Source of the DNA: Boothiomyces macroporosus
Taxonomy: Eukaryota; Chytridiomycota; Chytridiomycetes; Rhizophydiales; Terramycetaceae
DNA length: 61,245 nucleotides
Direction: 5' to 3'
Assembly (NCBI GenBank): GCA_027604185.1
Contig: JADGKB010000089.1
Location: 1 to 61,245 of the forward strand
In this document: positions 768 through 60,905 of the stretch, piece by piece
Layout: every line of letters begins with the position of its first letter
Position numbering within the stretch: the first letter of the stretch is position 1
Notes under the pieces: generated by a model
Told to the model about the DNA's origin: nothing
Seen by the model: only the letters and a program-made list of their open reading frames with translations
Database searches by the model: none
Position numbers and translations under genes: made by a program

Positions 768-2649
768 TTACGCTGGAATTTGGACAGGGAGAGGAATCAG
801 CTCTGGTATATCATCTCGATGCTTCTTCAAATGTTCCAGCTCCTTTGCTAATATTTCCTGTGCATGTTTGTCTTCCAATTCGTTGGAAAACTCCAAGGCG
901 GTTGTATAGCATTGATGTGCTTTGTCATAGTTTTTCACAGCAACTAGAATTAAATCTATAGTACTAGAGGCTTGCCCAATCAATACTCTAGAGGACAGTC
1001 CCCATCTTGGGTTGTTGAGGCTGTCCGAAATCGCCACTGACCGTTCGCCATAAGTTTTAGCTTTGGTGAAGTCCTTTAGGCGAAGATAACACTGGCCAAT
1101 ATCATGCAGCAGCCAAGCCTTTTCAATTGAGCCATCTGGCGTAATTTTAACTCCAGCTTCCAGCGCATCGATAGCCTTTTTATATTTCCTATTGTACACA
1201 TGGATTTTTCCAATTTCTGCCAAAGCTCGAACACACCATTCGTCTGAATTCATTTCTTTACCCAGAGTAACAACTAGATTAACAATTGGTACCTTTCTTG
1301 TAGTGAGTCAATGCATCTGGCACGTTCCCAAGCTTGTAGTAAATATTAGCCATTATATCATTCAATTCAACTAAATTAATTATACTTACTTGTAGTAGTT
1401 TCGACATTATGGAATTCTGGGGACTGGATTTTTGTTAACAGGGTTTTCGTTTTTCGCAAAGCGGTTTGGAAATCACCTTTGGAGAGATAGTTATTTACAA
1501 TCTGCATGCTAGTCTCGATTAAATTCTTTGCAAAATTCTTTTCTTCGAGCTTGATTTGCTGCTTCTTTATTGGATTCTCTGGGATTTTCTTGCTCTTGTA
1601 CCCTCCAGCTGTTTTTGGGTTTTCCATTTCTTGCTTTTTGAGGGCTTCTCTCTTTTTGTGATCTTCTGCTTTTTGAATAATCGATTGGCGGTTTCTTTGG
1701 TTGATTTGCTTTGTTAGTACTTTTGAAGTTTCCTTCTTTCTTGCATAGATGGGCTTTTGCTGTCTCCAAAATTCTGTTCGCATATCAAGGTACTTTAATG
1801 CATCATCCACAAGTGACTTTACTTTGCTGTTTGGATTGCTGTTAAGATCTGCGGTTAAATTTAGTTACCTTTATCTTTGACGAAATTTTCCAAATATTCT
1901 TGATCTGCATACAATTCTCCCAACAGCTGCTTTGCAGATTTGCCTATTTTTGGGTCTTTTTGTGCCTGTGTGGTCGTGGAGTTTTGCCCAGGTTGTGTCG
2001 GCTGTTTGGGTGATACCCAGACACCACTTAGAAACGGCTGTTTACTAGTAGTTGCGCCACCTTCATTTAGCGCTTAGTTTACCATTTTGTCCAGTTGGCA
2101 CGGATATAACTAGTCTGGCACCAGGAGGAGGTTGGAATTTGTAGTCAGTTGGATCTAAGTTAACGAAAGAGTACTGCCGATAGAGTTATAAATAGCTTCT
2201 CGAGCCTTTTGTATTCCCAATCTAAACTCGTCCAGCTAGATTAACCATCAATTACTTCTGGTCTAAATTGATTTCCGCGATGATAATAAACCAAGGCTAG
2301 TTCAAAATCTCCTTGTGAATACAGGGCTTCTGCTTTCTGAAATACTCCTTTGAAAAAATCTACTTCTTCTGTCAACGAAGTGTCTGCGTCTTGCAATGCT
2401 TTCTGGGTATCTCCAAGTTGTAACTATATCAGAATAACAGTACGTAGCATTTGGATCTAGCCACCAATACATTCTTATCCAACGGGCGCAAACGTAAAGC
2501 CTGGATTTAATTCCAATTACCTTGGTGTAAGCCTCGATCGATTTCTGATAGTTTCCTTGCTTTGCTAAAATATCTCCTTCAGCTGCGTATGATTGGAAAG
2601 ATGAAATGATTTCATCCACTTCTTCTTCTTCGATATCGTCCTTGGCCAT
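768..2649 (-). CDS. ODAD4: Outer dynein arm docking complex subunit 4 (TTC25-like TPR protein)
   Basis: Known role: ODAD4/TTC25 anchors outer dynein arms on doublet microtubules of motile cilia. Seen: nine exons join into about 573 residues. N-terminal TPRs include YAAEGDILAKQGNYQKSIEA, VLVARSKCYLQLGDTQKA and ALYSQGDFELALVYYHRG. The family signature FWRQQKPIYARKKE follows in mid-protein, with further TPRs (WLLHDIGQCYLRLKDFTKAK) to the end. Introns lie at 2501-2520, 2424-2443, 2236-2255, 2155-2174, 2061-2082, 1849-1868, 1371-1389 and 1274-1292, all 19-22 nt. The in-frame GTG three bases upstream of ATG 2649 was not used as start. Together with CFAP69 nearby it implies a flagellated life stage. 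Confidence 0.93.
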
Positions 2650-3038
2650 CACGAAAATTGTCGGTGAATTATCGAACCTTTTAAGGTGTCGTCATCATAG
2701 CAGTAATCACGAGTGGCAGTTGAGTTTAAAATTATAATATTACATTAGAGCCAATTCGTCTGCATTCTATTGAGTAAGGTTATTATTGCGCTAGCTGACT
2801 CTGGTAGTTTGACACCTCTAACTAATTTCGTGTCTGTGCTGAGCCATCTTTACTCTGTGAATATCAGCCGTATGAGCGTCTATGGTTGGCTACCAATTGA
2901 TTTGCACTTCCACTTCTTTTTTGGTACTCTTTTGAAGCACCTACGTAACTCACTATCCAACGCACATAGTAAATTTCACATAATTTCACAATCATCTCTA
3001 CAGCACACCTAATAACTTGTATGACAATTAAAACAAGG
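2650..3038. other. Intergenic, no gene recognised
   Basis: This spacer lies between the 5' end of ODAD4 and the 3' end of TXNL4A. Open frames on both strands (for example plus 2770-3012) have biased composition and no motif, and I could not join them with the short-intron pattern into a sensible protein. It probably carries the ODAD4 promoter and the TXNL4A 3' UTR. Confidence 0.5.
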
Positions 3039-3467
3039 TTAATATTTATATTTAGTAGAATAATCCTTTGGAGCAACAACCAGCCCTTTGCCCTTCCTTG
3101 CACCGCGATAAATAGTTTCGATAATATCAATCATTTCCTGCTTGTCTTCAATCGCCCAGTTTAGTTTATTATTATCCCCAGTTCCAAAATCCATCATCAT
3201 ATGTCGGTTGCGGAAAAAGAACATTACTGTGCATGGATCGTAGATTTCGTACATCTTGTTAAAGTCTGGAACCTGAGTGATATCGCACAGATATATCACT
3301 GCAAAGTTCTTTACTTTCTCTGCGATTCCATACAGCGTTTCATCCATTCTCATGCAGGTTGGATCCCAGTCATGTCCAAACCGTATCACTACGATCCTCT
3401 CCTCTTCATTTAGAATAGCTTGATCTACATGCCATCCAGTTGGCAAGTGCGGTAAAAAGTAGGACAT
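3039..3467 (-). CDS. TXNL4A: U5 snRNP 15-kDa protein Dim1/TXNL4A (thioredoxin-like)
   Basis: Known role: Dim1/Dib1 is a thioredoxin-fold subunit of the U5 and tri-snRNP that holds the spliceosome in its pre-activation state. Seen: a single-exon, full-length 142-residue protein with MSYFLPHLPTGWHVDQAI at the start, VVIRFGHDWDPTCMRMDE, YLCDITQVPDFNKMYE, CTVMFFFRNRHMMMDFGTGD and YRGARKGKGLVVAPKDYSTK. These are the hallmark segments of the family, and the length is standard. It has no intron, unlike most neighbours. It is the only core splicing factor in a window dominated by ultrashort introns. Confidence 0.97.
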   Translation of the reverse strand: MSYFLPHLPTGWHVDQAILNEEERIVVIRFGHDWDPTCMRMDETLYGIAEKVKNFAVIYLCDITQVPDFNKMYEIYDPCTVMFFFRNRHMMMDFGTGDNNKLNWAIEDKQEMIDIIETIYRGARKGKGLVVAPKDYSTKYKY

Positions 3468-3532
3468 GGAATATCAAGGAAAATTTTTTGGTGAGTCAAC
3501 CAGTTTACAATTGAATTGAAATTTAAATATAT

Positions 3533-3993
3533 TTATTGAATACGAGCATCAGCTTGGCACTGCTTCAACATATCCAAATAGAATTGACTAGGGTGAGTGA
3601 CAACTTACCATGCGCTGATATTGTTCTGGTTGGCATCAAGGCATCTCATGAATGCCTTGTTATCTGGCTCACAGGCAGCTCCAACTTGTTGTTGAACTGG
3701 AGCAGCCGGTTGTTGAACAGTTTGTGGTTGAGAGTTACCACCTCCAAATAATGAAGAGATTCCTCCTCCAATAACATGCCCTACGGTGCTTCCAACTGCA
3801 ACACCAGCTGCAGTAGATGCCATATTTGCAAATAAACTAGGTTGTTGTGGTTGCTGAACTGCTGGAACCTGAGCATGTTGTTGGACTGGCGGTGCTGGAG
3901 CTGGAGCTGCTGGTTTAGGAGCTGGTGCTGGTGCTACTCATTAAATGCATTCATACCTCTAGCTGCTGGTCTTGATGCTTGTCTTCTTGCCAT
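3533..3993 (-). CDS. CHCHD2: CHCHD2/CHCHD10 (Mix17)-like mitochondrial twin CX9C protein
   Basis: Known role: CHCHD2, CHCHD10 and Mix17 are intermembrane-space twin CX9C proteins imported by the Mia40 pathway and linked to respiratory-chain and cristae function. Seen: three exons give about 138 residues. MARRQASRPAAR is followed by an Ala/Pro-rich stretch, a Gly-rich hydrophobic segment (VGSTVGHVIGGGISSLFGGG) and a CHCH domain with CEPDNKAFMRC and CQFYLDMLKQC. The second CX9C pair exists only when the 21-nt intron at 3588-3608 is removed. The first intron is 23 nt (3934-3956). The stop TAA lies inside AATAAA. Confidence 0.93.
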
Positions 3994-4112
3994 TTCTGAT
4001 TATAATTTTTTTTGTGGAAGTTTCTATTGTCAAACGGGCAACGTGATCTTTCATTGGGTCGAATCATAACATCAGGTTTCAAGCTATCGGAAATGACCAG
4101 GGTTTAGAATGT

Positions 4113-4736
4113 TTATTGAACACATATTAAATTTTTACATTGAGAGTAAGGCAGCAGGTACATGCGGATAATCAATTTCAGCTCTGGTTCCACCCTCTTA
4201 TCTTGCAAGAGCATCTCCAGTAGCTCCCCGTTAGACAGCTTTGAAGCGGTTGAGATGGGATAGTTTTCGTTGCAGCATGGATTTGCCCTTTCAAATTCAA
4301 GCATCTTTCTTACAAGTTTGACATCTTGCGAGTCGATCGCTTTACAGAACAATAAATCAAAGTCTAGAAACTGGAAGTTTTCGTCAGAGTTAAATCTATC
4401 CAGCAGTAGTGAAGCGATTGAAGGGTAAAATTGAAGGGCCATTGAACATTCCAACAAGCAAAGCTGTATCCACCGTTCATTGACAGATTTCTTTGACAGA
4501 CATTCTTTTAACTGGTTATAGTGACCATTTTCTGACATGTAGCATAGGGATTCCTTTCCAATATCTCCTGGGGCAAGTTTAACCATATCTGGATTCGACA
4601 TTTTATATTGAACAAAAGTTACAGTTGGAATCAAATCTAGATTGATGCTAGTGCAAGAAAGACGCAACGAATGATATTCTGGTAGGTTTAAATGCTGGCT
4701 TATTATCTGCAATTCTAGTGGGATTTTATGAAACAT
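4113..4736 (-). CDS. F-box-like protein with degenerate repeat region
   Basis: A single exon encodes 207 residues. The N-terminus (FHKIPLELQIISQHLNLPEY, then SLRLSCTSINL) has the spacing of an F-box, suggesting a substrate adaptor of an SCF ubiquitin ligase. The rest is helical with ankyrin-like spacing (LCYMSENGHYNQLKECL, LFCKAIDSQDVKLVRKML) but without clear consensus repeats. The stop codon TAA overlaps AATAAA. The substrate cannot be inferred. Confidence 0.6.
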   Translation of the reverse strand: MFHKIPLELQIISQHLNLPEYHSLRLSCTSINLDLIPTVTFVQYKMSNPDMVKLAPGDIGKESLCYMSENGHYNQLKECLSKKSVNERWIQLCLLECSMALQFYPSIASLLLDRFNSDENFQFLDFDLLFCKAIDSQDVKLVRKMLEFERANPCCNENYPISTASKLSNGELLEMLLQDKRVEPELKLIIRMYLLPYSQCKNLICVQ

Positions 4737-5007
4737 AGCAACATTTCATTAGGGAGTTGGGTATTTAAGGAGCTCTGGCGTTTCAGGATCAATTGCTACA
4801 ACTCAACAGCAATTGATTTAAAACTTAAAGAGTTTGTAGAGTTGCTATGTTACTAAACAAACTATGAAGTTTGGCATGCCATCAATGACACTACCATAAC
4901 CTATAAAGAATTCCCAGATACTTGATAGTCACAATTGATTCCTTGAATATCAATCAAAATCAACTCTGTGTCTTGTCCAAGAAAGTTTCCTATAAAATCG
5001 CGTCATC

Positions 5008-7870
5008 ATGTCAGGAGTAAAAATACAAGCTATTCAACAGCTTCAGACAGAGTTAATTCCCACCAAATCAAGGAACCCTAAAAAGCAGATTACTAGAGAG
5101 CAACTCGAGACTTTAATCCCGACTTTTAAAAGAAACGTAAATGCCAAAGTAGACTTTGAAAAGCTCTCGAAATTACTAAACCAAAAATCTATAAAATTGT
5201 TTGCTGATAGGCAGCAAGGGGCTTTAGAAAAGCTGGTTTCAATATACACAACAGGAATTGTAATTTTTTATTGATTTAGCCAATTTCTGATTTGGTTTCA
5301 ATTACGAATTTGCTGGATCCTATTCTAAACTTGATCCAAGCAGGAGCAACAAATCTAGTTACACCGCTTTGTGACTTGCTTGGATTATTTCAGTACTATT
5401 GTGCTAACGGCAGATATTTTCCAAATTTAAAGGATGAGCAAGTAGATTTACTTTCATATCCATGCAGGCAGCAAGAGCAGGTCACAGAAAATATCGTTTA
5501 TTTATTGAATACATTGTGCAGAGTATTAGAAAGCGGCAATCAAGAGTTAGTGGTGGTAGCACTTGAGGTAATCCTTTTTTAACACAGGCGTTATTTCAGA
5601 TATCCGGAGGAGATGTTGAGCAGCAGAACAATAACAAGCCCATCAAGATTCAGTTTTCGAAATCTGTTCTCCAAACTACTGCATTGGCTCCACACAATTT
5701 CGAGAACAAGCATACAAAGAACTCTAAATTCCTATTGCATGCTGCCACTAAAAGGTAAATGCATAGTAACTAGCTCATTAATCACATATCTAACCCAATT
5801 ACTCGTCACCGCGGATGATATTTCAGTAATTTTCATGACACTAAAGTGCCTGGAACGCTTAACGCGATCCAATATATTTTGTGAGCAAATCATCAACAGC
5901 GAAAACCATAATCAAACGGCTGTACTGAAAAAGATGCTCTTGCTTCTTCGGGATTACAATGAAAAAGATGCGGTCCTGTTTCTAAACTTTGAACTGTGGT
6001 GGAATATTTTGGAAAGTCAAGTCAAAATAGAAGCTGCAAATTACCTTGGAGAGCCAGACCAACTCCAATTGATTTATTCACAACTTTGTGAATGCATCAA
6101 AACTGCAAAGCGAAAGATTGAAAAACAAAAACGAAATGAATTGCTGTTTTTGCTTGCAAAAGTAGTGGAATATTCTCTAAAGTCAGACTTTGTACAAGTT
6201 CCAATCCTAAATTTCGTTTTGGAGAATATGCAGATAGAAATGAACAATCAAGAGAAGGAAGAACCAATTGACGAAGACGATTTTGAGTTCAAACGGATGA
6301 TTGTCAACATTGCCAAGTTGCTATGTGATATCCCAGAAGCCAAAGTTGAATTGTTGAATGTAATTTTGCTTAATTCAGGCTGGACTACTTCAGCTTTCTC
6401 TTAGATTCTTGAACTGTACTCCAAATAGCCAATTGAGTAAAATTTACGACCACGACCATTTATCATTAATCCAAATATCCATTTTAGGATTGATTTGCAA
6501 TTTGATTCCGACTGTGCAGAAAGAATTCAGGATGTTGGATGGACCAGAAATACTGATGAGCTATTTAGACAAGCTGATCAAAGACGGAAAAGATTTTCAT
6601 TCAATGAGAATTGACCTTGTCCGAGTGCATGTGAATTTATTGGATACGTGCTTGTTGACTATTTTAGCGTTTGCTGAAGGTGGCCCGACCAACAAAAAGA
6701 TCCTTTCTTCTTTCAGCATATTTGAAAAATTCCTAGGTAAGCAGAGATTTATTCAGCGCTGCTTTCGAGAAAGACGCCATCCACTGAAATCTGGATAAAG
6801 TGTTTATTGTGTTGTTCCTCTTTGTGCCAAGGATACAAAGCAAACAAGCAGAATTTTGGAGAAGCTGGAGGGGTGGAAGTCATGATTGAATTCTTAAAGT
6901 ATCATTAGACTAAACACCAGATATGATACCTGCGATCCAAAAGAAAAGGAAAGAGTGTTACTATCGACAGTAGAATGTATCTGGGGAACTATCTGTGGCA
7001 ATTTCGTTTTCGAAAACAAATTCCTGCAACTGGACGGTAGACGGTTCTTAATACAGGAATGTTTTACCTCCTGGAACTCTTAGAAATGTCAACATATGAA
7101 AATAAGCGACACGCGTTAGGTTGCATACTGGACTTTTTGGAAAACCCCAAAGTAAAATTAGCTTAAATACAGGCAGTATTACATGTCCTGCAATGGAGAA
7201 CGAAAGAAAAATCCACAAAGGGAATAGAGCACCTGCTAATAGCATTGTGGAGTTTTGAAGAAGAAAAATTAGAGGTTATTCAAGGAACTTTTGGTTCAAT
7301 ATCACCAGACTCTCAATTTCCACTTCGAGGATTGAAATCAAAGAAAATCGAGCTGCTAAAAAATGGAATTGAGCCGGATGGTGGTAGAGCCGTTCTAGAA
7401 ATACAGGAAAATCTAAGAGTACTATCATTTCTTACAACCAGGCAAAGATCTACTCGATATTTTGCAAATTGGGATTCGAACATTTTTCAAACACTCTGAA
7501 TGTGAAAGAAAAGACCAAACTGGCGATGATTTCCAAGTATCTTGATTTCAAAATTGGCGAAGTTTGGAATGAAATTGGAGAAGAGCTAAAGTATGAAAAT
7601 ATTCGGCCAATCTCTCCAGATTTGTGCTGTATTCGTGCAATTGAACAAACGGTCAAAGCAAAAACTATGGCTGTAATAGAGAAACAGAATGAAATTATCA
7701 AAAAGGCAGAAAAGGTTGCTTTTATTTGACTTTAGGAAGCGCAGGTGCAGGAACAAGAGTTTTTCAGTGCCTGGAAATTCAAATTTCTGCCTGAAGTTCC
7801 TCCACCACGAAAACCAAGGATTCACACATGGAGACAAAGACAGTTTTATAATGTAAATGTACCCAAATAA
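5008..7870 (+). CDS. CFAP69: Cilia- and flagella-associated protein 69
   Basis: Known role: CFAP69 is a helical-repeat protein of the ciliary central apparatus, needed for sperm flagella and olfactory cilia. Seen: eleven exons give about 885 residues, close to the animal length. The C-terminal block LDFKIGEVWNEIGEELKYEN followed by IRPISPD is the family signature. AKIYSIFCKLGFEHF and VECIWGTICGNFVFENKFLQ also match expected CFAP69 segments. Introns: 5260-5279, 5568-5587, 5755-5773, 6360-6378, 6737-6756, 6899-6920, 7037-7056, 7152-7172, 7419-7441, 7715-7735 (19-23 nt). Two of them are 21 nt and carry an in-frame stop. The stop TAA lies inside AATAAA, 15 bp from the convergent stop of the P5B ATPase. 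Confidence 0.92.
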
Positions 7871-7885
7871 ATTGAAGAATGATAT

Positions 7886-13233: not shown

Positions 13234-13345
13234 TTATTTTTTCAGCGGATTACGTCAAGAAATTTGACTGTTTGAATTCTACCTTTTATTGGCAATTCAC
13301 GAATACTAAAACTGAATGATTTCCTATTTGGTAATTATTTATCCT

Positions 13346-41938: not shown

Positions 41939-41992
41939 CTCAAAGGAATATATAACCTTTTCCCCAACCCAGCAAATTCTTGCTGATTAAAC

Positions 41993-43969: not shown

Positions 43970-43992
43970 CAGTCATTGTTTATTTTCTCCCA

Positions 43993-45016
43993 ATGGACGA
44001 TCTAGGTACCCATCGTTAATTAGATAAATTACTAAATGATTTGCAAGGTGGAGTGAAGGCAGAAATAGAAGCAAAACCGCAAGTCAACCTTTTGCAGGAA
44101 ATCGAAGAAATGGCGAATCAATTCCAGGGAATGAAGAAGCCATCCAGTCCCGCACTATCCAAACTAAATTCTAGGAGTGTATTAAAGGGATCCCCTGATA
44201 TCATACCAAAATATCGCACTCAGTCTAGCGCGTCTACTGATTCGAAAGAAGGTAGAGAGTTTAAAACTTGTTCTCAATGTTTAGAGCCCATCACGAGTGG
44301 CGGACAAGTACTAGGCAACAAGTACTTTCACTCTGAGCATTTCAATTGCAACAAGTGCAAAAAACATCTACGTGGCCTGTTGACGTTTGATCGTGACGGA
44401 TTGCTGTGGTGTGAAAAAGACTATCATCAAACATTCAGCCCACAATGCGGGTATTGCAAAGAGCCAGTAAAAGAGGTGATTTGCGTTAATAGCAGGAAGG
44501 CATTGAAGCGCTTGGGATGACATTCCATGAAGATCATTTCTTTTGTGTATGCTAATTTTAATGTAGGCAATGTGCGGCAAGAACCTCATCAAAACATCCT
44601 TTATTGAATACCAAGGGAAAGCTTTTTGCCAGGATGACTACAATACGTTCTTTGCTACCAGATGCGTTGGGTGCATGCAACCTTTGCTTGATGACTATGT
44701 AACTGTCCAGTCAAAAAACTATCACATCAACTGCCTAGTCTGCACCGTATGCCAAAAAGTAATCTCTGCTACTTCACTATACACGCATGAAGACCAGCAT
44801 TATTGCGAGTACCATTACTACGAACTCACATCCAACATTTGCTATGACTGTAAGGGTATTATCATTGGAAGATGTGTAGTCGCGCTGGACAAAAAGTTTC
44901 ACCTCAACCATTTCAAATGCGCCTTCTGTTCAAAGAATTTGGATGAGAAGGGAGGATACAAGGAGAAGAGCAATAAGGCATACTGCACCAGCTGTTATGT
45001 CAAGATTTTCAACTAA
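43993..45016 (+). CDS. Paxillin-like protein: LD motif plus four LIM domains
   Basis: Known role: paxillin-family proteins scaffold adhesion and cytokinetic-ring complexes, with N-terminal LD motifs binding kinases and C-terminal LIM domains targeting them. Seen: four exons give 321 residues. The start MDDLDKLLNDLQ is a textbook LD motif, assembled across an 18-nt intron (44006-44023). Four LIM domains follow (CSQCLEPITSGGQVLGNKYF; CGYCKEPVKE; CVGCMQPLLDDYVTVQSKNY; CYDCKGIIIGRCVVALDKKF). Other introns: 44476-44495 and 44547-44566 (20 nt). All Zn-binding pairs look intact. A DOCK-type RacGEF in the same window fits an actin/adhesion theme. Confidence 0.93.
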
Positions 45017-45132
45017 TTCAAAATAAATATTCCCATTCCGAATACTCTGTTTGGATCCGCTTTTAACATTCGATTGATTTATGCTGGCCTGAATCGGCCG
45101 AACTAGGGTTGAATTTTCTCACTTTTTACAGA

Positions 45133-45685: not shown

Positions 45686-45711
45686 ATTGTTAATAAAGGT
45701 GACTGTATTAG

Positions 45712-48700
45712 TTACACGGGATTTTGAGTTCGCTGATATCTAATCTTTTCAAAGAATTGCATGCCTCCAAAGTGCAGAAATATTCTTCTTACTGTTGCAT
45801 ACAGATAGAGGAATCCTCCAAAACAACCGGGAATAGCCAGGAACAGAGGGTCTAGGTTTCCTGAAGTAATGAATATGGCTATGTCAAAGTGTAATTACCA
45901 TTTGTAATTGGTGTGTACACCACCAACAACGCAAAGACTGTGCCAGAAGCAAGAACCACCCACATATGCTGGTTGCTATATTAAAAAGAGTGTACCTAAA
46001 CATTCTGGTCGAGATGCCAATAGTGTATCTCTTCTTGCAAGCAAAGTAGTTGCATACCTGGATGATGAATATTGAAAGATAATAACCGCTTTGTACTTGT
46101 CTAATGGCTTCAAACTGATCATACCCAGCCAATATACTTCCATTCTCGAGTTCGAGATCTGGGCTACTAGGTTTCCAATACACATTCCCAAGGATTTGGC
46201 TCTTGCGGGCATCTTCTCCGGATATTCCAAATTGAATCCAAAATATCGCAAAGTATGTACATATAGCACCGGCGAATTCAATCAATCCTGCTTCTAGGTA
46301 TGCCCAGATCAGTACCTCGGCATCCATTAGCCTTTCGCCTGTAGGAACTGATGTCAGGGCTTGCATTTCATGGAATTGGGCTTTCCAGTACCTCTTATCA
46401 ACCACCTGCTTTGCTTCTTTAAAGTAATTCAAATATCTATTTTGTAATTTACTATTTAGTTTTTTGAAATCTTTTTGCAGAGCTTCTTTTCCTGTAACAT
46501 TCAATAATTCCGTTGATTCGGCGTCCGTTTCGTTCAAGTTATTAATGCTACTAAACATATCCAATGTTTCGGCATTGAAGCTCGACTTTCTTCTCATTAG
46601 ATGATCGTGTTTCTCCATAATCTTTTCATTTGTAATTATTCTTCTTGGTGGGATTGTCATTAGAATTTTATCATCTTCAGCAGGCTCCCAAGCAAATGAA
46701 AGAGTCATTAGCAATTCAAATCCTAAATCTACTGCCAAAATTTGAGTGGGAGTGATCGGTAACGGGATAGGGACAATCACATACAAAAGGTAAGGCAGTA
46801 TCTCGCACATGATATGGCTTAGAGAATATTTGATTGCCTTTTTCAAATTTGTGAAAATAAGACGTCCTGAGTTAGTTTAGCTGCACCTTCTTGGATTCCT
46901 CTTACAGTACTGGTAAAGTTATCGTCCAAAAGAATCATTCTCGCGCTTTCTTTACTGATGTCACTCCCGGTTTTGTTCATGGAAATCCCCAAATCTGCTT
47001 GCTTTAGCGCCGCGCTGTCATTTACACCGTCTCCAGTAACTGCTACAATGTGACCAAGCGCTTGAGCATATCGGACAATATCCAGTTTATGAGAAGGCAG
47101 CGTTCTAGCGAAAATGATTTCATCGTAACAAAAAGTGTGTGCCCAGTCCTTGTCAGTCATTTCTTCCACTACTGCACCGGAAATCACAATCGCAGAAGCG
47201 CTTTCTGGATAGGGAATGGGTAGATTTACTGGCTCATAAACTTTGATAACATGGCTTTCTTTGACCAGATTTACTTGCCTTGAAATGGTCTACGTTAGCA
47301 TTGATATACTTCAGCAGTCACGGGATTGTCTCCAGTAACCATAATTACTTTAATTCCAGCCCCTCTAATTGTAGTTATAGCTTCAGCAACACCATCTTTT
47401 GGTGGATCTTCCAATCCAATTAGTCCCAAGAATGTATAATCAGATTTTGGATAATTTTCCTTTGCATGATCGAATGTATAGTTATCAGGATACCTGTCTC
47501 CTCGCATTTGTAGTATCCCACATGCTAAAACTCGAAGTCCCTTTTGAGCCATCTCTGTCATGGCATTCTTAAACTTTTGCTGGTGATCTGCGTTTATTGG
47601 TAAGATGGACCCGTTTACCCAAATCGTGGAACACAAATTCCATACTTTTTCTGGTGCGCCTTTAATATGCAATGTCAATCCGCCCTGCGAGTGTGATTTG
47701 CGATGAATCGTGGTGTGATATTTCGTATCAGATGAAAACGCGATTTCAAATACTTTTGGATACATTGAATCTATTTGATTAAAGTTCTTTAGTTTGTCTG
47801 CTGCAAATTTCAATAGTCCTTTTTCCGTTGAATCCCCTGTAAATATTTTATCATTTGAATTTGGGACTGGTTCACATTTTGCCCTATTATTAAGATATTC
47901 ATACCTGGAGCAGGTAACGCATACATGCATAAGCTGCGCTACACCACTTAATTCCATCTTTAATGGAGCCTGGCTCTTGGGATTGGTAACTTTAGATGGG
48001 ACAAGATATGTGGAGCCATTGATCCAGACTTCCGTGACTTCCATTTCATTCTTTGTTAATGTTCCCGTTTTGTCTGTCGCAAGCATTGTTATTGCACCGA
48101 GAGTTTCGATTCCATGGAGATCTTTTACCAAAACGTTATGCTTAGTCATTCTTCGTCCAGATAATGCAAGAATCATAGTTACTGTTAATGGTAAGCCTTG
48201 GGGAACCCACGCAATTAAAATTCCAATCCCAAAGGTCACTGCATAGACGAAATTTCTACCTCTTGCCAGTCCCCACAAGAAAAATATAATTGCTGTGATA
48301 AGCGCCAACAGTGCAATTGATTTGATGAATCGTCGAATTTCTTTGGATAAAAAGGAGACTTTTGCCTTTGCATCCTTTGAAAGTCTTTTAATTTTCCCAA
48401 CTATCGAGCTTTCTCCGGTGTGTACTACAATGGCATATCCTTCTCCTATATTGTTACATAGCGAGTTACCTGAAGAGACAACATCCGTACTAAAGACAAC
48501 CTGGGGACTATCAAACGGATTGGATTCTTCAGGGCTTCCTTCTAATACTGGAAATCGACTAAAAGGTTCACTTTCACCAGTAAGGCCAGATCCATCAACT
48601 CGCAGTTCGTTTGCTTGAATCAATACGCAATCTGCGGGCACCTTATCTCCAGGCTTCAAATAGACTATATCACCAGGAACAATATCACATGCAGCAACTT

Positions 48701-49613
48701 GCTCCTTCTTACCATTCCTAATTACAGTTGCATTTGATGCTATTAATCCCTATTCAAATTAAAACTACCTTGAAGGAGCTTAAAATTGATGAGATTTTTT
48801 GCAACTCATAAAATTCTATACCTGCATTGATTACGCCGACGCACAATAGCGTTGAACCAATCCAAATCTATATTAAACACTACTTACACTCTCAAAATTT
48901 CTCTCTGGTCTCAACGCGTACAAAACCAAATACATTATCCCTGAAGCATATAGCAGCACATTGAATAAATTGGTCAAGCATTCAATGAAAATCACATGCA
49001 ATTTCGAATTTTCCGTAGATTTGGACTGATTCAATCCATAAATGGTGAGTCTTTCAGCAGCTTGGGCAGACGTCAATCCCGGGGACAGCGAAGGATTTTT
49101 GACTTTAACTTCTATTCGTAGCTTTTCTGCCAGTTTCTCGATTGGTAGTGTATGCTCTTGCATATGTGTTAACCCTGCCCCCATGAATTTAACTACAGGA
49201 TCTTTGGAATTCTGTGGATCGGCTTGCATTTCAATTATTTCATCTCCATTTGCAAGTTTTTGGATGTTTTGAGAAGATTTGGACACTCCCTTTATAGCAC
49301 CTCTTATTTTCCCAAATCTTGAAGACTCTTTCTTCTTTTCTTCTTTGACTGTATCCTTCATACTCTTAATTGTCACTTCCTCTTTTGGCTTGACAGATAT
49401 ATTGACAATTTCCTCTGCCAAATTCATATTTTTCTGTTTCAGTTCATTAAGCTCCCTCTCCTTTTCTAAATCTACTTCTTTCTTTTTGAGCATTGGAAAT
49501 AATGTTGGTTTGGGCCGTTTGGTTTCAGTTTGGGCTTCTTCTGGTTGTTCCTCCTCCTTTAATGGGGTAGTGTCATCATTCAGCATTTCCATTGGAATAT
49601 CTTGATTATCCAT
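45712..49613 (-). CDS. Type IIC (Na,K/H,K-ATPase-like) P-type ATPase alpha subunit
   Basis: Known role: IIC pumps exchange Na+ or H+ for K+ across the plasma membrane. Seen: seven exons give about 1260 residues. Long charged N-tail (about 130 residues); HTLPIEKLAEKLRIEVKV; VDGSGLTGESEPFSR; M4 IAWVPQGLPLTVTM; ATDKTGTLTKNEMEVTEVW; VMVTGDNPVTAETISRQV-like hinge; TGDGVNDSAALKQADLGISM; M5 HIMCEILPYLL; M6 VDLGFELL. M4 has Gln where animal pumps have the ion-binding Glu (VPEGL), and the second M6 Asp is Glu. Introns: 48868-48887, 48750-48768, 47290-47309, 46867-46886, 45976-45995, 45879-45898. An upstream in-frame ATG (49661) exists. No beta subunit gene is seen nearby. Confidence 0.93.
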
Positions 49614-49671
49614 CGTGACTGAACGCGAAAAAATACAAAGAACAAATATTCTATTAAACACATTAAAAATT

Positions 49672-52600: not shown

Positions 52601-55437
52601 AACAGTAAGCAACATTGACAGCAACTTTGACCATTGAAGAGCGGTAATTCCAGTTAATCCTTCTGAAGGGAATTCAGCTGGCTCGGGTAGCATCAATCTT
52701 TGAATTTGATCAACTATAGCTAGACAGACTTCTGTTCCATTCACTACCACTGCCTTTTCGCTTGATCCCACAGTTCCACCAATTGATCCAACTGAATGCA
52801 TTACTTCGTTTCCAAACGATTCCAGTACCCAATCACAAGAATATCTTCTCCAGAGAACCTGTGCATCGATCGTACGAAATATGTTCATGGTGTAAACGTT
52901 GGATATCAGCTTTAATCTGATGCTGGAAAGTTTGTTTGATTTCATGTCAATTGTGTCCAAGATCTTTTTCAACAATTTCACTTTTCTCTTTTCATCCATA
53001 AATCCAAGTTCCATCACAATAGAGTCCAATTTCTGTAGAGTAAGAGTTTGAATGGCCAGCGTTTGCACAGTACACTCCTGGGAAAAGAGCGCAGCAAGAG
53101 CATCCATCAGCTGTTCCACCATTAAATTTTTCTTTTCGTCGTCCAACTGCAACTTGAATATAAGTCTAAGAATCAGATGCCAAGATTTAACTGCCTTTTT
53201 AATTGCTTTGCCCCCTTCTAGTGTAGTGTTTCTGAATACGTCGATAAATAGCTCTGATATTCTGGGTAGATCAGATTTGAATTTTGGAAGTAGTTCAAAT
53301 TGATGCAATACGTATTCAAGCTTCTCTGCAAATCGAACATCTAGTAGTGTATTGAAGAAAGAAATGAACGCATCCATAACTTCCTTCTTGGCAGGCAGTA
53401 CTACATCAAATAGTTTGGCTTCTCGGTGTGGTCCCATCTCGAAAAAGAGATCTTTGAAAGTCTTGAATATGTGATGGGAAAATTTCGCAATTTCTATTTC
53501 AGAAATGTTGCTGAAATTAAGTAATACATCCTTAAGCGGCGATCTGTTATGTATACCCGTGTGTTTCCATGTCAGAAAATTCGAAAGTTTAATGTCTTGA
53601 GTGAAAAATGTAGAAAACAGTGTTGTCGATATGGTAAACGAATTTTCCAGCAGCGGCAATTTGGTTAATGCATTGGCGGATTTGGAAATCGAGGTAATGG
53701 AAGACGAGGATAGATGAATGGGAACCAGAATATCTGGCCCTGCAGCAAAACCAAGATAATTTTCGGGAGAAACATAGCGACTATCATACTTGTAAAGGGA
53801 TAATTGATGGTATCCATCACTAATCATCAAATGTTGGCGCTGCATTAAAGGAAGAAAGGCAAACGAAGTTGGTTCCAGGCTCTTTGCGAGGTTCCTAAAC
53901 GTAATGAATACATGGGCAGTTTGCATTTGCTGAGGTGGAAGATCCACTCTAATAGTTTCATTCCATATTGATGTAGAAGACTTAGTAAATACGATAGAAT
54001 TGTACTCTTTAATTGGTGACTTTCTTCCTCCCCTAAACATTGCATCTGCGATATCTACCATTAATATTGATTACATGAGCCATCAGGCTGTCGAATATGG
54101 CAAGTGATTTGAATTGCTACTGAACTTGATTTGGGAAAAGTAAAATTCCCCCGCTCAAGTGTCAGGTACATACAATTAGTATCGTTTGCTGGGAGCACCT
54201 CGTCAGAGTTTCCGTTTCTAGGGATTCTACAGCATGCTTTTGGGACAGTAACTTCACCTAGATTTCCTCCCAAAACAGAGACTCTTAGCGTCAGTTTTTC
54301 TACACTATTTACATCATCAGTGGTAGCTGACCAATCCATTTTGACTTCTTGATCTTCCACAGCCTTTTTGATAGAAATCTTTAGTTCCTGACCAACCATC
54401 TGCCCAGGCCCTCCAGGATTAGATAATAGCTGTGCAATTGTAATGATAGAGTATCCATACAGCTTTCGAATAATTTGATTATTTTCCTTTGAAAACAACT
54501 TTGCTCCTTGCTTTTTTATAGATTGAAACAAACTGTTGCTTTTACTTTCAATGTTCAAGTTGGCCAATGAACAAGACACACTGATTTGGCATAATAGATA
54601 CACATGTGGGTGGAGCAGCTTTCTTGTCAATTCCATAAAAACACATGATTTGGGGGAGCTATCCAACACTTTTCCAGTATGATCCAAACTGACAATAAAC
54701 TCTTCCGACAAAGGCTTCATTGCTCTTTGATCATAGACTGCAAATGAGAATTCCACTGTTTCTTCAGGTGCAATGTCCAGCCCTCGAAAGCTAATAAAGT
54801 CCATAAACAAGTGCAGGCGATCATAAACCACATCACTGGGGCTCTTTACCGGCTCTACACTTGTCTTTTCCAAATACTGTTCATATAGGCGTAGCGTACT
54901 GCAGGTTTTTTCCGAGATCAAATCTCCATTGTCATCAAATAGATACAAGCCAAATTTGAATTTCTGGTTCAATTGCAGAACTGAAGAAACGATTGATTGT
55001 TTGTATCTAATTGATTCGTTCCTGGACGGCACATTTGATATCAAGATTTGTATTTTGTTGGTTATAACTTCCATCGCATTGTAGATGTGTTCCCTCTGAG
55101 CATGGTCGTTGCAGCGAGGTAAATAGAATATCCAGTCCTTGAATGCAGCTCCTATCTGGCTGTAAAACTGCCCATCGCTTCCAGGTATAGCATATGCGTT
55201 CGGGAAATGCGGGTGCTCAAATAAAAGCACTTGAGATCTCTGCAGAACCAATTTCCCAAAGTCTTCAGGATTCAGTTTGAAGCATTCATAGTGCGTTGGA
55301 GAGTAAGCTGATATTTCAACTAAATAACTGTATGGGGTCTCCTCGAAACCAGAGTATTGCTGTTGGGCAGCCCCAGTTACTATTATTCCATAGATATTCT
55401 GTTCTAGTTGTTTGAATTCGTCCGGATCTATCGTCAT
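49672..55437 (-). CDS. DOCK180-type (DOCK-A/B) Rac guanine nucleotide exchange factor
   Basis: Known role: DOCK proteins activate Rac/Cdc42 through a DHR2 domain and bind phosphoinositides through DHR1, driving lamellipodia and phagocytosis. Seen: four exons give about 1900 residues. N-terminal DOCK-A/B helical region (FKDWIFYLPRCNDHAQREHI); DHR1 near 430-560 (SIWNETIRVDLPPQQMQTAH, VFITFRNLAKS); armadillo-like middle; DHR2 near 1350-1700 (ERAIELTRELEYQYEHKIFD, FPTYYRVAFYGKGFTSKLSG); Ser-rich tail. A canonical N-terminal SH3 is not evident. Introns: 54055-54074, 50150-50170, 50043-50064. The exon 50171-54054 is the longest uninterrupted coding stretch in the window. Confidence 0.93.
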
Positions 55438-56163
55438 TGAGCTAGTAGAATGAATATTTTTGGTTGATCTGTGAGTTTTTAATTTCTCAAACTCTTTTGG
55501 TCAAGTCGAAAATATTTTGTGTAACCACATGGATGATGGGGCAAAAGTACGCAATTTAATCACCAAATGGAGAGCAGATCAAAGGGAAGGCATTCTATTC
55601 TGCTTACCGCCATTATCAATCTGAGTTTTGAATAGCCCATGGATTCAATAGCAACAAAATGCTGTGTCCAAAAGTACCCAGCGGCTGATTCCATTTTAGG
55701 ACCACACGGGTTTCTTGTTTCAGTCTTATTTTACCATCGAGAAGTAGGTGGGAAAATTAATTCAAAAACAAGACAAAGAACAAGAACCAATTGATGGGCA
55801 TGAAATTGACTTTCTTGATCCTTTATCTGGTAGGTTTATGCTACTATAGGACGGGACCTATTATTTTTTCTTACCACTCTTTACTGTTTTTAACCAATAC
55901 TTATTTCAAGAGAACCAAAATCTACCAACGGATTTTGAGCCGTCATTAAGGAACATTATGAGACTGAGTAACAAACCAAAACTTGAATTTTAACCGGTTG
56001 ATCGATAAACGCATCAGCTTTTCAATAAGGCATTTCCTAATTACTTTACTATTGTAAAATTTTGAATATTGGTGCGAATGGCCAGCCCGATTCCTATTAG
56101 CGGAATCCATATTTGTTGGTATTAAACAACAGCGACGCGAAAAATCTCTCATTTCTCTAAAAA
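55438..56163 (+). other. Intergenic with a possible small plus-strand gene
   Basis: This shared 5' region lies between DOCK (minus) and the ankyrin gene (plus). A 20-nt intron of perfect local style lies at 55830-55849 (gtaggtttatgctactatag). It is preceded by an open stretch encoding KEQEPIDGHEIDFLDPLSG. Further upstream, open pieces (MDDGAKVRNLITKWRADQRE from 55531) could be a first exon, but I could not build a continuous frame. A small or decayed gene is possible. Confidence 0.25.
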
Positions 56164-56687
56164 ATGGTCCAAATCAAAGTAAGCAATTCTAACAGTAGGA
56201 ATTATTCGATGGTTCAAATCTATTTAACCTAGCAATCAAAAACTCGCAGTCTGATTCGGTCCGTCAGATGCTTCTTCAAGAGAAAGGATTAGCATCCCAG
56301 AAATACAAATCTGAAGACGCAAAATTTGATGCAGATGTAGAACTAGACGCTTATAAATTCTTGGGAGCTTATTTGGGGGCAATGACTCCCCTACATTTTG
56401 CCATTTTGCTGGGACAGGACGATATCGCCAAAGATATTATTGAACGAAGCTTCAAGGAGGATTTGGAAGAAACTTTTGGAGTATTTTTTATTAATATTAG
56501 GGAGGTAACACTGCTCTACACTTGGGTAATTGATTACTAACAAGCCACTCTTTTAGGTGCCGTGGATATTGTAACTCTGTTGTTGGAGAGAGGCGCAAAT
56601 AGAACTGTCAACAATGCAAAAGGATTTCAACCTGTAGATTTGTCTGATGATCCGGAATTGAGAAAACTTTTCGTTTCTACAAAATAA
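56164..56687 (+). CDS. Small ankyrin-repeat protein
   Basis: Four to five exons give 147 residues (155 if the second candidate intron is retained). Seen: start MVQIKELFDAIKNSQSDSVR; repeats GAMTPLHFAILLGQDDIAKD and GNTALHLATLLGAVDIVTLL, then LERGANRTVNNAKGFQPVDL. Introns: 56179-56198 (20), 56212-56232 (21, no in-frame stop, so optional), 56481-56500 (20), 56526-56544 (19, branch and acceptor fused as actaacaag). The last exon restores a perfect ankyrin consensus. The stop TAA lies in AATAAA and is 24 bp from the convergent F-box stop. Partner unknown. Confidence 0.85.
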
Positions 56688-56711
56688 ATTACAAGTATTT
56701 TATTTACAGTG

Positions 56712-57548
56712 TTAACAAACCATCCGCATGTATAGGTCCCTCAGTCTATGGGAAAGATCTTGACCGTTGATTCTTGATATTTTGGTACATACACAAGGCA
56801 TCTCGTCCTTGTAGCCGAAAACACCTCTGATTGTAGTCACAGTTAGCCTGATACGGTATTTATCTTGGACAAAAGTATGTTCAAGATGATCAAATGCAGA
56901 GATAGAGCCATGTACAAACTCACTCTTGCAAACTTGTTGGTTATCATAATGAGCACATTCTGAACAAGAGTGTGCCACTCTGAGACCACCAACTGGGGAG
57001 TTTGAAGTGGCCATCATTGGCGGCAGTTGGCCAGATTTGATTCGCTTTTGAACATCAGCGATATAGCATGGAAGGGTTTCTCGATGATCGAAATAATCTA
57101 CGAGCACTTTTCCTCCTGGCTGAACATCCAGAGCAATTCCACCCAAAAAGTCGTATTGTTCCAGAAAAGTCTTGTGAATCATGTATGGCATTTTCACCCC
57201 ATTCTTTGTCCATTCACCAAACACCAGTTGGTCGAATGAATGCAGAGAAGTTTCAAGAGAGACATCAACTTGTATTATATCGGGTGTTCTGTAAATATAT
57301 TCCCTCCAACTTTGACGGTTCATCACAACGGATCTCCAGCGTTTGTTTACATGGCGCAGGGTGAAGCAAGTCATAAAGCCACTATACATGGCAATCATTG
57401 CCAGTATTTCTGTTGGCAGCTTGTCAAAGCACTCTGGCTGCTCTTGAACCAGAGTAACTTCAGAGTCCTGTCTATACATTGGCTTCAAAAAATCCAAATC
57501 CTGGAGATCCAGCGATCCCAAGATGTGCTGTACTTGAGTTACATTCAT
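56712..57548 (-). CDS. F-box protein
   Basis: A single exon of 278 residues. The F-box lies at about residues 40-85 (CFDKLPTEILAMIAMYSGFM, TLRHVNKRWRSVVMNRQSWR). The C-terminal region has no recognised repeat. It carries a Cys/His group (HSCSECAHYDNQQVCKSEFV, then CVCTK) that could bind zinc. Known: F-box proteins connect substrates to SCF ubiquitin ligases. The substrate is unknown. AATAAA lies about 10 bases after the stop. Confidence 0.8.
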   Translation of the reverse strand: MNVTQVQHILGSLDLQDLDFLKPMYRQDSEVTLVQEQPECFDKLPTEILAMIAMYSGFMTCFTLRHVNKRWRSVVMNRQSWREYIYRTPDIIQVDVSLETSLHSFDQLVFGEWTKNGVKMPYMIHKTFLEQYDFLGGIALDVQPGGKVLVDYFDHRETLPCYIADVQKRIKSGQLPPMMATSNSPVGGLRVAHSCSECAHYDNQQVCKSEFVHGSISAFDHLEHTFVQDKYRIRLTVTTIRGVFGYKDEMPCVCTKISRINGQDLSHRLRDLYMRMVC

Positions 57549-58569
57549 TGTTTGTGATTGTGGCAGTTGATGGGTATTTATAAGTCCATTGTGGCATTTG
57601 GGGCAAACAATGGGGGTTTCAGTTTAGTTTCAAGGTCTACTGATCCTTATGGTTTCATGTATTACCCGCCAGAGTGAAAATGGTCCAGAATCGTCTTTCA
57701 TTGTGAAATGCTCTTTGACATCATGACTATGTAATGCAATATTATGCGTTAGAGTGGATGAGCAGGTGGACTAGTCACATTGATAATGGAAAAAGAGCTT
57801 TCCTCAACTATTTAAATTCACTTTGGAAGAGCTGTATTTTGTCTGATCTGAGGATGGTATTAGACGGTATTGATTGCCCCAATGAGGCTGCACCAGTCGC
57901 TGATCTACTTCAAATTAATGACTGTCTGTGTATGTTTTTTGTTTACTTGAAACGAAAAAGTTGGTCATGCTTATTAGTCAATACTACGGATGTCAATGAT
58001 GCCAAGAGCAAACAAATTAAATCTTGAAGATATTCAAAAACTAGAAATAGATCAATAGAACTTATCCAGCCGGAATAAGAAATATTGCCCAAGTTTAATT
58101 GGGCTGAGAAGTGATTAAATAGAGAAGCGCGACAGCTACCATTACATCACCTCAAGCTGCGAAACGCACTTTCGTAGCGTTCAGTAATTCATTGATCTAT
58201 CAAACGTTCCAATTTAAACAGTGTGTAACTTACTGTCCCTGCCCTATTTTGTGAGAGGGAACGTCGCCATAATAAGGAGAGTTGCCGAACCAGATCAAAC
58301 TTTTGAATGCGTCCTAGAATCTCCAATTCAGCGTATAAGTGAACCTTGGCAACCACTAGCAGCAAGTCCGCCAGAACTCCGATCGAATTGATTGGTTGAT
58401 GATATGAAAATTCCCAATGCTAACCCTTGATCAGTTGAGTTTGTCTGTGCGCCATGAAACACCACCCAAAAGCCTTGAACTTTCGATAGCAACAGGGGTT
58501 CAACAATATCTCACGTTATTAACTAGCGTTTTAATATAAATTGATTCAAAATATGCGTGAATTTTTAGC
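57549..58569. other. Long intergenic region with a possible plus-strand gene
   Basis: About 1 kb between divergent F-box (minus) and SWIRM (plus) genes. A plus-strand frame 57734-58027 contains DLRMVLDGIDCPNEAAPVAD, which looks protein-like. A 22-nt gt...ag segment starting near 57730 could link it to an upstream ATG. I could not complete a convincing model. The remaining bases (58030-58560) show nothing. Confidence 0.25.
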
Positions 58570-59368
58570 ATGTCTGCTATGTTCGACTATCCTAGCCCAA
58601 TACCATCGCCATTCCTTCCTAAATCAGCATTGATCTGGGAAGCTCCCCTCAGCGAACTTCACCAAAAATCAAAACGAAAGAATTCAGTACCTCATCGGTC
58701 GCTAAGCCCACCACTAGACCACGTTGATAGATCTTTTCAAAGAATTGTAAATTTGGATGTATATGCCGTGTTCAAGGAGAATCCTGCTCAATTGTTGGGA
58801 AAGAAGCTTTCAGATTCAGATTCAGAATCTAGCGCAAAATCTCCAAGAGAATCCGCTCCAGACCCGCCAAAAGCAAAATCCACCAGTGCTTGCAAAGTAC
58901 TTCCTTCATTTATTGTCAAGAATGAACCATTAGAGTTGGATTTGTGTGACTACAAGGAAACTAAGGGAGCACCTAACGTGTCGTGGAAGGGTAGATGATT
59001 AATTAACGCTAGCTGGAGCACAACCACTTCCAATTACTAGAGATATGCCTGAATATGACGACTTGACGGCTGAGGAAGTACGCACTTGCGCAACTTTGCG
59101 TATCTCTCCAAAGCAATATATTGAAATCAAACGAACTATGCTCACTGCTGTTCGTTCCTATGGCCCGTTTAAAAAGCGCGAAGCTCAGACCTGGTTTAGA
59201 ATAGACGTAAATAAGGTATACACAAGCTAACGATAGATTTGTATAATTTATGACTGGTTTAAAGCCCTTCAATGGATTCCAAGTACTGATGATTGGGTTG
59301 CACCAGCAGATTCTGGTAGAAGAGGATCATTTTCCGAACATAGACAAAAGAAACTCAAGAGAAAGTAG
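58570..59368 (+). CDS. SWIRM-domain protein (Fun19/Laf-like)
   Basis: Known: SWIRM is a small helical domain found in chromatin complexes, and fungal Fun19-type proteins carry it alone at the C-terminus. Seen: three exons give 251 residues. Pro/Ser-rich disordered N-terminal half; SWIRM in the C-terminal half (LTAEEVRTCATLRISPKQYI, KKREAQTWFRIDVNK then ICIIYDWFKALQWIP); basic end (KKLKRK). Introns: 58991-59012 (22) and 59216-59236 (21, in-frame stop), the latter inside the SWIRM domain. It probably acts in the nucleus with a deacetylase or remodeler, by family analogy. Confidence 0.85.
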
Positions 59369-59426
59369 GTTATTTCACCGTTTCTCTGTAAATACAATGT
59401 AAATACCTTGGTTGAAATATATTTCT

Positions 59427-60107
59427 CTAATTCTTTTCAAATTGCAATTGTCTATACAATTCAAACAGATCAGCTCTGACTTGATACTGCTCTCTTTGAT
59501 TTTCTGGTCAGCTTTAACGTACCTGGTTGAAGCATTTCGCGGCATTTTCGATTCTCGATGGAGAAGGCTGGAGATTTATCTTGCCACCATTTGGATCTAG
59601 GCGGTCTTACAGCTTCCCAATGCTCTTTCCAGCGCTCAAGAAGCAGATATTTCTAAATCAGTTTCCAATTACTTCCTGTGCACGTAGTATTTCCAACTGC
59701 TCCCGTATAGAAATACCAGGAATCAGTCCCTTGGCAGAATCAGGAATTACAGTTTCCTTATGTATCGGCTGCATATATTTATAGTCATTTTTGAACTTTG
59801 CAGTAATGACGTTGCCAACAGACTTTGGAGGATTCCTGTGAGCTAACAGTGCTTCGCGCATTTGTAAATCCGCTTGATGATATTCCAAGTCTCTTAGATT
59901 GTTGGATTTTAATGAATTTTCCAAATGTGTCTGTAGTTCTAATTCTCTAAAAAGAGTTTTGCAATTTAGGTAGTCAGAGGTGCCTTGGGGGTTATCGCTG
60001 GATACTAAAGATATTTGCGACTCTTCATGCGACACTGGTGGAGGTACTGGTGCCGATTTCTTTCCAAATGCAGTGCCTCTCACTATCAAGTCGCTTTCCT
60101 TCCGCAT
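59427..60107 (-). CDS. Charged helical protein, family unknown
   Basis: Three exons give 213 residues. The start MRKESDLIVRGTAFGKKSAP is followed by helical, Glu/Arg/Leu-rich stretches (FRELELQTHLENSLKSNNLR; EKYLLLERWKEHWEAVRPP) and a Trp-containing end (SKWWQDKSPAFS). No membrane segment or signal. The style resembles small axonemal or cytoskeletal proteins, but no family signature was recognised, so no function is given. Introns: 59653-59672 (20) and 59504-59522 (19). It lies 39 bp downstream of PEX11 on the same strand. Confidence 0.7.
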
Positions 60108-60146
60108 TGTTCAAAGATTAAATAGTAAAGATTTAACAAATGTATT

Positions 60147-60905
60147 TCAATTAGTTGCTTTCCATGCGGAATAGAATTGCAATACGGCAGCAATAGTTCC
60201 AAAGAAGCCAACTCCAACATCTGGGAAGGAAGATGCTTCCAAGGACCAATGAATAGTCAATGGGAAATATGCAGTATTAATCAATGCAGATATAGCCCAA
60301 TCATGTTCTTCTTGCTTTAGCTTCTTTAATTCGCTCTTGACGACTTCCTCCTCTTTCTTTCCACTTTTCAATGCCTTGATCTTTTGCCCTCGAACAGTGC
60401 GTTCCTCCCACAATTGAGCAAAGTATAATACGACATACGCGGCCCAAAATCTGCAGCTCCACATTCCAATCTACATTAATATCGAATACCTTGTCGCGAG
60501 TAGCGTCTGACATTGGAATCACCTGGTGGAGACCAAGCCAGTAAGCGTGTTCTAATGGGTAATACATCAGGTTCATTAGGTTTTGCAATCTTCCTAGGAG
60601 CTGCAATCGTGGGTTAGGATTAGGATTCTTTTCTGAATATTTGATCCACTGAATCAATGGCAACAAGCCTAGATATTAATGTGAATAACCATAGTATCTC
60701 AGCAGTAATCTGAAATCCGAAACTGGTCCAGAGAAATTGGCAATCCTGACGGCTAATGGTGATGAAGCGTCCTTTCGTTTCAAGTGCCAAATAATCAATT
60801 TGGAAAAGTATTGAACAAACATCAGGGTTTTATCAGTGCCTCTATTGTTAATATTACACACCTGACAGAGTCTAGGAATCTGCATAATTTGTCCAAGTCA
60901 ACCAT
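60147..60905 (-). CDS. PEX11: Peroxisomal membrane protein PEX11
   Basis: Known role: PEX11 bends and elongates the peroxisome membrane before fission. Seen: four exons give 232 residues. Start MVDLDKLCRFLDSVRGTDKT with the N-terminal amphipathic region and YFSKLIIWHL; FRLLLRYYGLLPLIQW; LMYYPLEHAYWLGLHQV; SCRFWAAYVVLYFAQLWEER; C-terminal membrane segment (GVGFFGTIAAVLQFYSAWKA). Introns: 60842-60861, 60669-60689 (21, in-frame stop), 60471-60489. Its presence indicates peroxisomes, consistent with an organism not reduced to the microsporidian level. Confidence 0.92.

Follow-up and report, generated by a model that had tools for sequence, protein, structure and literature searches.

The 61,245-nt stretch of DNA analyzed here (the window, positions 1–61,245 of contig JADGKB010000089.1) comes from Boothiomyces macroporosus (Chytridiomycota, Rhizophydiales, Terramycetaceae), and its protein-coding genes are interrupted by segments of mostly 18–23 nt, with GT...AG ends, that we read as putative spliceosomal introns. 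Three genes, for an ODAD4/TTC25-like protein, a CFAP69-like protein and a Na+/K+-type P-type ATPase, were compared with homologues, and each junction was scored as contiguous or not; for the ATPase this was done pairwise over 4+4 residues. The homologues used were 28 of the 120 listed for ODAD4/TTC25 (one of them, P0126, is the contig's own deposited model), all 4 matches for CFAP69 (one of them, P0124, again the contig's own model) and 38 of the 120 listed for the ATPase. The called introns are as follows.

768–2649, minus strand: ODAD4/TTC25-like gene with 9 introns of 19–22 nt; 8 of the 9 junctions contiguous in 23–27 of 28 homologues, the ninth in 3/28.
2501–2520, minus strand: 20-nt intron, GTAATTGGAATTAAATCCAG; contiguous in 26/28; P0125 and P0126 are without the exon between it and 2424–2443.
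2424–2443, minus strand: 20-nt intron, contiguous in 23/28.
2236–2255, minus strand: 20-nt intron, contiguous in 27/28.
2155–2174, minus strand: 20-nt intron, contiguous in 27/28.
2061–2082, minus strand: 22-nt intron, weakly supported (3/28) in a variable region; junction identical in P0125 and P0126.
1849–1868, minus strand: 20-nt intron, contiguous in 23/28; junction identical in P0126.
1371–1389, minus strand: 19-nt intron, contiguous in 24/28.
1274–1292, minus strand: 19-nt intron, contiguous in 26/28.
944–964, minus strand: 21-nt intron, contiguous in 24/28; 7-residue insert in P0126 and P0127.
5008–7870, plus strand: CFAP69-like gene with 12 called introns, 11 of them supported in one or more of the 4 homologues.
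5052–5072, plus strand: called intron, probably coding (a false call); absent from 0/3 relatives.
5260–5279, plus strand: 20-nt intron, 3/3.
5393–5413, plus strand: weak intron call, 1/3; P0121 and P0122 have 7 residues there.
5568–5587, plus strand: 20-nt intron, 2/3.
5755–5773, plus strand: 19-nt intron, 3/3.
6360–6378, plus strand: 19-nt intron, GTAATTTTGCTTAATTCAG; 4/4, P0124 included.
6737–6756, plus strand: 20-nt intron, 4/4.
6899–6920, plus strand: 22-nt intron, 3/4; P0122 has 7 residues there.
7037–7056, plus strand: 20-nt intron, 3/3.
7152–7172, plus strand: 21-nt intron, 3/4.
7419–7441, plus strand: 23-nt intron, 2/4; P0123 has 7 residues there.
7715–7735, plus strand: weak intron call with a clear junction in P0122 only; its count of 3/4 overstates the case, for the models P0121 and P0124 continue into the intron (VAFI).
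45712–49613, minus strand: Na+/K+-type P-type ATPase gene with 8 introns of 19–24 nt; junctions contiguous in 34–37 of 35–38 homologues.
48868–48887, minus strand: 20-nt intron, contiguous in 37/37.
48750–48768, minus strand: 19-nt intron, contiguous in 37/38.
48446–48469, minus strand: 24-nt intron, contiguous in 37/38.
47884–47904, minus strand: 21-nt intron, contiguous in 36/38.
47290–47309, minus strand: 20-nt intron, contiguous in 37/38.
46867–46886, minus strand: 20-nt intron, contiguous in 35/38.
45976–45995, minus strand: 20-nt intron, contiguous in 34/38; the Terramyces model P0002 has 7 additional residues there.
45879–45898, minus strand: 20-nt intron, contiguous in 34/35.

At least one homologue backs 28 of these 29 called introns, three of the 28 weakly, and one is contradicted. 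The 20-nt intron at 2501–2520, proposed earlier from the letters alone (the sequence-only reading), is borne out by the ODAD4 homologues.

Intron size was surveyed in 21 places, namely the window together with twenty 10-kb stretches of other contigs, which together make up 261 kb of the 15.2-Mb genome. Our own exon-intron Viterbi program, given codon usage and end dinucleotides only and with lengths of 14–160 nt equally likely, made 156 GT-AG calls, 74 of them at 18–23 nt. With each of eight other donor/acceptor dinucleotide pairs, GC-AG included, 3–14 calls fell in that range. An earlier run, with three loci of small nuclear RNAs (snRNAs) added, had placed 75 of 158 calls at 18–23 nt before motif learning, and splice motifs appeared on iterating it. 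A scan of the window that used no gene models found the pattern GTA...TAAN...YAG of 19–22 nt 68 times (16, 31, 11 and 10 hits at 19, 20, 21 and 22 nt), where 20 dinucleotide shuffles led one to expect 14.2, and at 24–59 nt there was no comparable peak (maximum 10, at 49 nt).

With the learned motifs, the decoder called 452 introns in 109 genes, and 363 of them measured 18–23 nt (93/115 in the window and 270/337 on the other 20 contigs), a narrow mode of the kind, at or below ∼25 nt, that defines an ultra-short default class. Lengths of 19, 20, 21 and 22 nt were represented by 77, 146, 86 and 30 introns. Retention would shift the reading frame for 264 of the 363, and 57 of the 99 introns with a length divisible by three (3n) would bring in an in-frame stop. 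No obvious dip at 21 nt, such as possible selection against silent 3n introns might leave, is seen in the length counts, in which stop-free 3n introns are under-detected. The density of 18–23-nt calls, ∼1.4 per kb, would extrapolate from the 1.7% sampled to a genome total of the order of 20,000 introns. The sequence-only reading had counted about 90 introns in the window, all but three of 18–23 nt: the number and the size class stand, but 11 of the 115 window calls (42 of 452 overall) exceed 28 nt. Its broader claim, that tiny introns appear to be the default class of this fungal nuclear genome, is supported for the 21 sampled places.

The anatomy was read from the 363 called introns. At the 5′ site, A occupies +3 in 322 and +4 in 200, T occupies +5 in 150 and +6 in 198, and GTAATT is the commonest hexamer (49/363); on average 5.4 of 9 positions match the U1 complement. 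G at +5 is scarce (75/363) despite a canonical U1 5′ end, and compensation by G at −1 was rejected (no association, Fisher p 0.44). The 3′ ends are TAG in 235, CAG in 85, AAG in 41 and GAG in 2 introns. A YTRAY-like branch motif is found in 290, its A lying at nt 14 or 15 in 245 and followed by 5 or 6 nt in 255. The motif model behind these calls was learned with its anchor on the 3′ end, which makes the branch statistics partly circular; the motif-free set gives the fairer estimate: YTRAH in 60/74, with the A at nt 14/15 in 53/60 and 5/6 nt after it in 50/60. No significant association was detected between the two spacings, from the 5′ end to the branch A and from there to the 3′ end (chi-square p 0.20), and by simple arithmetic, multiplying the two distributions comes close to the 19:20:21:22 counts observed.

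The genome holds intact snRNA and protein parts of a spliceosome. U1 scored 68.8 bits, just under the gathering score of 69.5, and has the 5′ end AUACUUACCUG; U2 has two genes (142.2 and 135.4 bits, both with GUAGUA), and U6 (62.2 bits) carries ACAGAGA; the pairing sequences of all three are canonical. Slu7, Prp18, SF1 (SF1-HH), U2AF65, Isy1 and Cwc25 are all present, Isy1 as two gene-model calls one base apart whose structure was not used. The U2AF65 match to TIGR01642 (230.7 bits) covers one stretch and lies below the whole-protein cut-off of 310.3. Cwc25 was named from a Cir_N match and the N-terminus MGGGDLNLKKSWHP, which we take to be its hallmark. Among the parts examined, the losses that mark a reduced spliceosome (U2AF, SF1, second-step factors or U1) were not observed; loss of Slu7 or Prp18, considered since the branch lies so near the 3′ end, was rejected because both were found. 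Two 3,111-b loci on contigs C49 and C100, each with the Cwc25 gene, do not differ at any base, so that either the region was duplicated recently or the assembly contains it twice. Beside the U6 gene (L003, 1–480 and 914–1425), inspection by eye showed a gene of higher GC content with a similar copy facing it as an inverted repeat.

These parts bear on whether the introns take a special route, either one in which SPF45 takes the place of U2AF, as it does in short human introns whose pyrimidine tract is truncated, or one in which the branching stage is altered, as has been suggested for the ciliate Stentor. The 5–6 nt after the branch leave no space for a pyrimidine tract, a point in favour of such a route. 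Against it, U2AF65 is present, with matches to solved structures for both RNA-binding domains and for the C-terminal domain. No SPF45 was seen among seven G-patch matches (∼3 kb decoded around each, inspected by eye), a search that an intron-split G-patch could escape; one match with RNA-recognition motifs is presumably RBM5/10-like. The Cwc25 model also keeps the MGGG N-terminus, a glycine motif reported absent in Stentor (PMC9505925). We regard a special route as unlikely.

Somewhat less probable still is that the tiny introns are one class among others, a normal longer class having escaped the decoder. Its length ceiling varied from 160 to 300 nt by run, so that lengths above 160–200 nt were covered in some runs only and those above 300 nt in none, and the calls beyond 28 nt mentioned above could belong to such a class. 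At 30–160 nt, however, the motif-free decoder made 70 GT-AG calls, fewer than with any of the eight decoy pairs (92–112), which amounts to no excess, and none of the 29 called introns of the three homology-tested genes is longer than 24 nt.

We give very little credence to the view that the mRNA keeps the segments and translation skips over them, or that they are removed by non-spliceosomal means. The byp elements of some yeast mitochondria are the comparison for translational bypass. Here the segments begin with GT and end with AG, their YTRAY motif is complementary to the GUAGUA of U2, their 5′ site matches the complement of the U1 5′ end in part, and U1, U2, U6 and spliceosomal proteins are encoded in the same genome. 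An origin of the 20-nt segments as insertions made in sequencing or assembly can practically be dismissed, as they have GT...AG ends and, in a constant position, a branch-like motif, recur across the 21 contigs sampled, and coincide with inserts or gaps in models from sister strains and genera.

Those models suggest that sister genera share the tiny introns, judged from protein sequence. The ATPase is 85–87% identical to the models of Boothiomyces JEL0866 and Terramyces JEL0728, and at most 60% identical to the others among the 120 matches listed. The model of Terramyces sp. JEL0728 (P0002) has the 7-residue insert RWVNFNN exactly at intron 45976–45995, and, back-translated, this insert is compatible with a 21-nt segment bounded by GT and AG. 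Both P0001 and P0002 are without pieces that begin or finish at tiny-intron boundaries.

Several deposited protein models of the two genera appear to be wrong at tiny-intron sites. On the contig itself (768–2649 and 5008–7870), the models have kept a 21-nt intron, skipped exons and lost an N-terminus beside tiny introns. The deposited models use eight of the called junctions, six in P0124 (HK103_007287, 100% identical over 64% of the CFAP69-like model) and two in P0126. The latter translates intron 944–964 as 7 residues, has exons lost or replaced between the intron pairs 2501/2424, 2236/2155 and 1371/1274, and uses 2061–2082 and 1849–1868 as called. Wrong insertions and missing exons in the Boothiomyces and Terramyces models, at least in those examined, affect comparative work on early fungi.

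Taken together, these data argue, with a probability of roughly 0.94, that the segments are true spliceosomal introns of the U2 type, whose length has shrunk almost to the least that the spliceosome can handle, and that they form the default, perhaps the only, intron class of this chytrid. Several points count against that reading. The motif-free set is small (74 introns), and since the decoys give 3–14 calls in the same range, some of the 74 must be chance. Some 3n, stop-free calls are doubtful, above all those of 15 nt (13/13 without a stop); 73 of the 363 introns are without a good branch match, and the branch statistics of the larger set are circular in the way described. In the CFAP69-like gene one call is probably coding (5052–5072) and two are weak (5393–5413 and 7715–7735). 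The intron search was limited to 300 nt, and above 160–200 nt to some runs. Of the snRNAs, U1, U2, U5 and U6 were searched for, and U5 gave no match, which does not show its absence.

If the segments are spliced as proposed, each intron would consist of two nearly fixed spacings, a branch A at base 14 or 15 and then 5–6 bases to a UAG or CAG in most cases, which would combine roughly independently into lengths of 19, 20, 21 and 22 nt. U1, and then U6, would read a short, weak 5′ site (GUA, A at +4, U at +6, the usual +5 G absent), and U2 would pair with YURAY a few bases downstream. Since a polypyrimidine tract would not fit between the branch and the AG, the first AG past the branch would be taken, releasing a lariat of 14–15 nt with a 5–6-nt tail. 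Deletion bias may have been the cause of the shortening.

Introns of this kind are known from distant lineages. The heterotrich ciliate Stentor coeruleus has introns of 15–16 nt, in 18.14% of its genes, as compared with the 452 called in 109 Boothiomyces genes (PMC9505925). Both systems have AU-rich GU-AG introns, a canonical U1 (ACUUACCU in Stentor) and a U2 with GUAGUA; the tail after the branch A is 5 nt in Stentor and 5–6 nt here, and the most abundant Stentor intron begins with GUAAUU, the top Boothiomyces hexamer (PMC9505925). They differ at the branch, which in Stentor lies at nt 10–11 with no strong consensus reported, whereas Boothiomyces has a clear YTRAY at nt 14–15 (PMC9505925). 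Chlorarachniophyte nucleomorph introns span nearly the same lengths as ours (18–21 nt; PMC10245619, citing Gilson 2006), in the relic nucleus of an endosymbiont with extreme genome reduction rather than in a 15.2-Mb fungal nuclear genome. The mikrocytid Mikrocytos mackini, an intracellular parasite, has 224 introns in 179 genes, of 16–17 nt, with a narrow size range and conserved sequence as in Boothiomyces; 17–19 spliceosomal proteins and, of the snRNAs, U2, U4 and U6 only are reported as identified (PMC10245619). The ∼25-nt introns of the ciliates Paramecium and Nyctotherus are ultra-short too, but ∼5 nt longer (PMC5014332). Nucleomorphs (18–21 nt) and heterotrichs (15–16 nt) had been named as precedents in the sequence-only reading, and mikrocytids were left out of it (PMC10245619).

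No report of fungal introns in this size class was found in the open-licence PubMed Central literature, subscription papers being outside the scope of the search; as far as could be searched there, the kind is new for fungi. Other fungal introns are likewise GT-AG and U2-type. Those of Cryptococcus neoformans, with a mean of 63 bp, have been called relatively short. If confirmed by RNA, B. macroporosus would be the first fungus with default introns of ∼20 nt as far as open-licence literature shows, and it would offer a new place to study minimum intron size with an apparently ordinary spliceosome. Tiny introns, many introns per gene and no sign of a reduced spliceosome in the parts examined suggest that shrinkage need not accompany spliceosome loss or endosymbiosis. 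Since the branch motif has been preserved, the two spacings are directly readable, and this provides a testable minimum for the spliceosome.

What sets this minimum may be geometric. U6 pairing at bases 1–6 and a U2/branch helix from about base 9–10 would leave 2–3 linking bases, so that 14–15 may be near the shortest spacing that keeps both helices; the Stentor branch A at 10–11, for which no strong consensus is reported, fits this (PMC9505925). We tentatively propose, at somewhat less than even odds, that Terramycetaceae introns are as small as geometry allows for an unreduced spliceosome that still needs both the U6/5′ site and the U2/branch helices, their layout being bases 1–6 for U6, two or three linkers, the branch helix and the shortest tail that allows the next AG to be cut. 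Their length would then be set by two rigid spacings and not by selection on the total; heterotrichs and mikrocytids would reach introns 3–5 nt shorter only where branch pairing is abandoned or branching factors are altered, and the loss of +5 G would reflect that U1 must leave easily with U2 so close.

Removal of tiny introns also restores domains in other genes, at the following positions of the window.

3588–3608, minus strand: 21-nt intron in a CHCH domain gene; CHCH PF06747 (E 3.4e-8) spans the junction.
44006–44023, plus strand: 18-nt intron with the branch A at 14 and then 4 nt; removal gives LDKLLNDL, retention an in-frame stop.
60147–60905, minus strand: PEX11 gene with 3 introns (20, 21 and 19 nt).

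If 3588–3608 were kept, the sequence would read TGG TAA; the CHCH domain runs across it in the spliced product, as had been predicted for a CHCHD2-like gene. Two further predictions agreed with the spliced products, a HisG domain with ADAIVDLVESG (HIS1) and an IBR match with CWHC (RBR ligase). At 44006–44023 the predicted LD motif is recovered, and the LIM domains of that gene were recognized by eye only. The spliced PEX11 product covers positions 1–222 of the 222 in profile PF05648 (E 2.3e-32). Outside the window, the spliced Slu7 and U2AF65 models, with 3 and 6 introns of 19–24 nt, match solved human proteins. Finally, an open frame at 2–460 of the window (minus strand) runs off the contig end; a piece of it has no Pfam match, and the CPKC motif of the frame recalls what we take to be the zinc-ribbon end of Fanzor/TnpB proteins.

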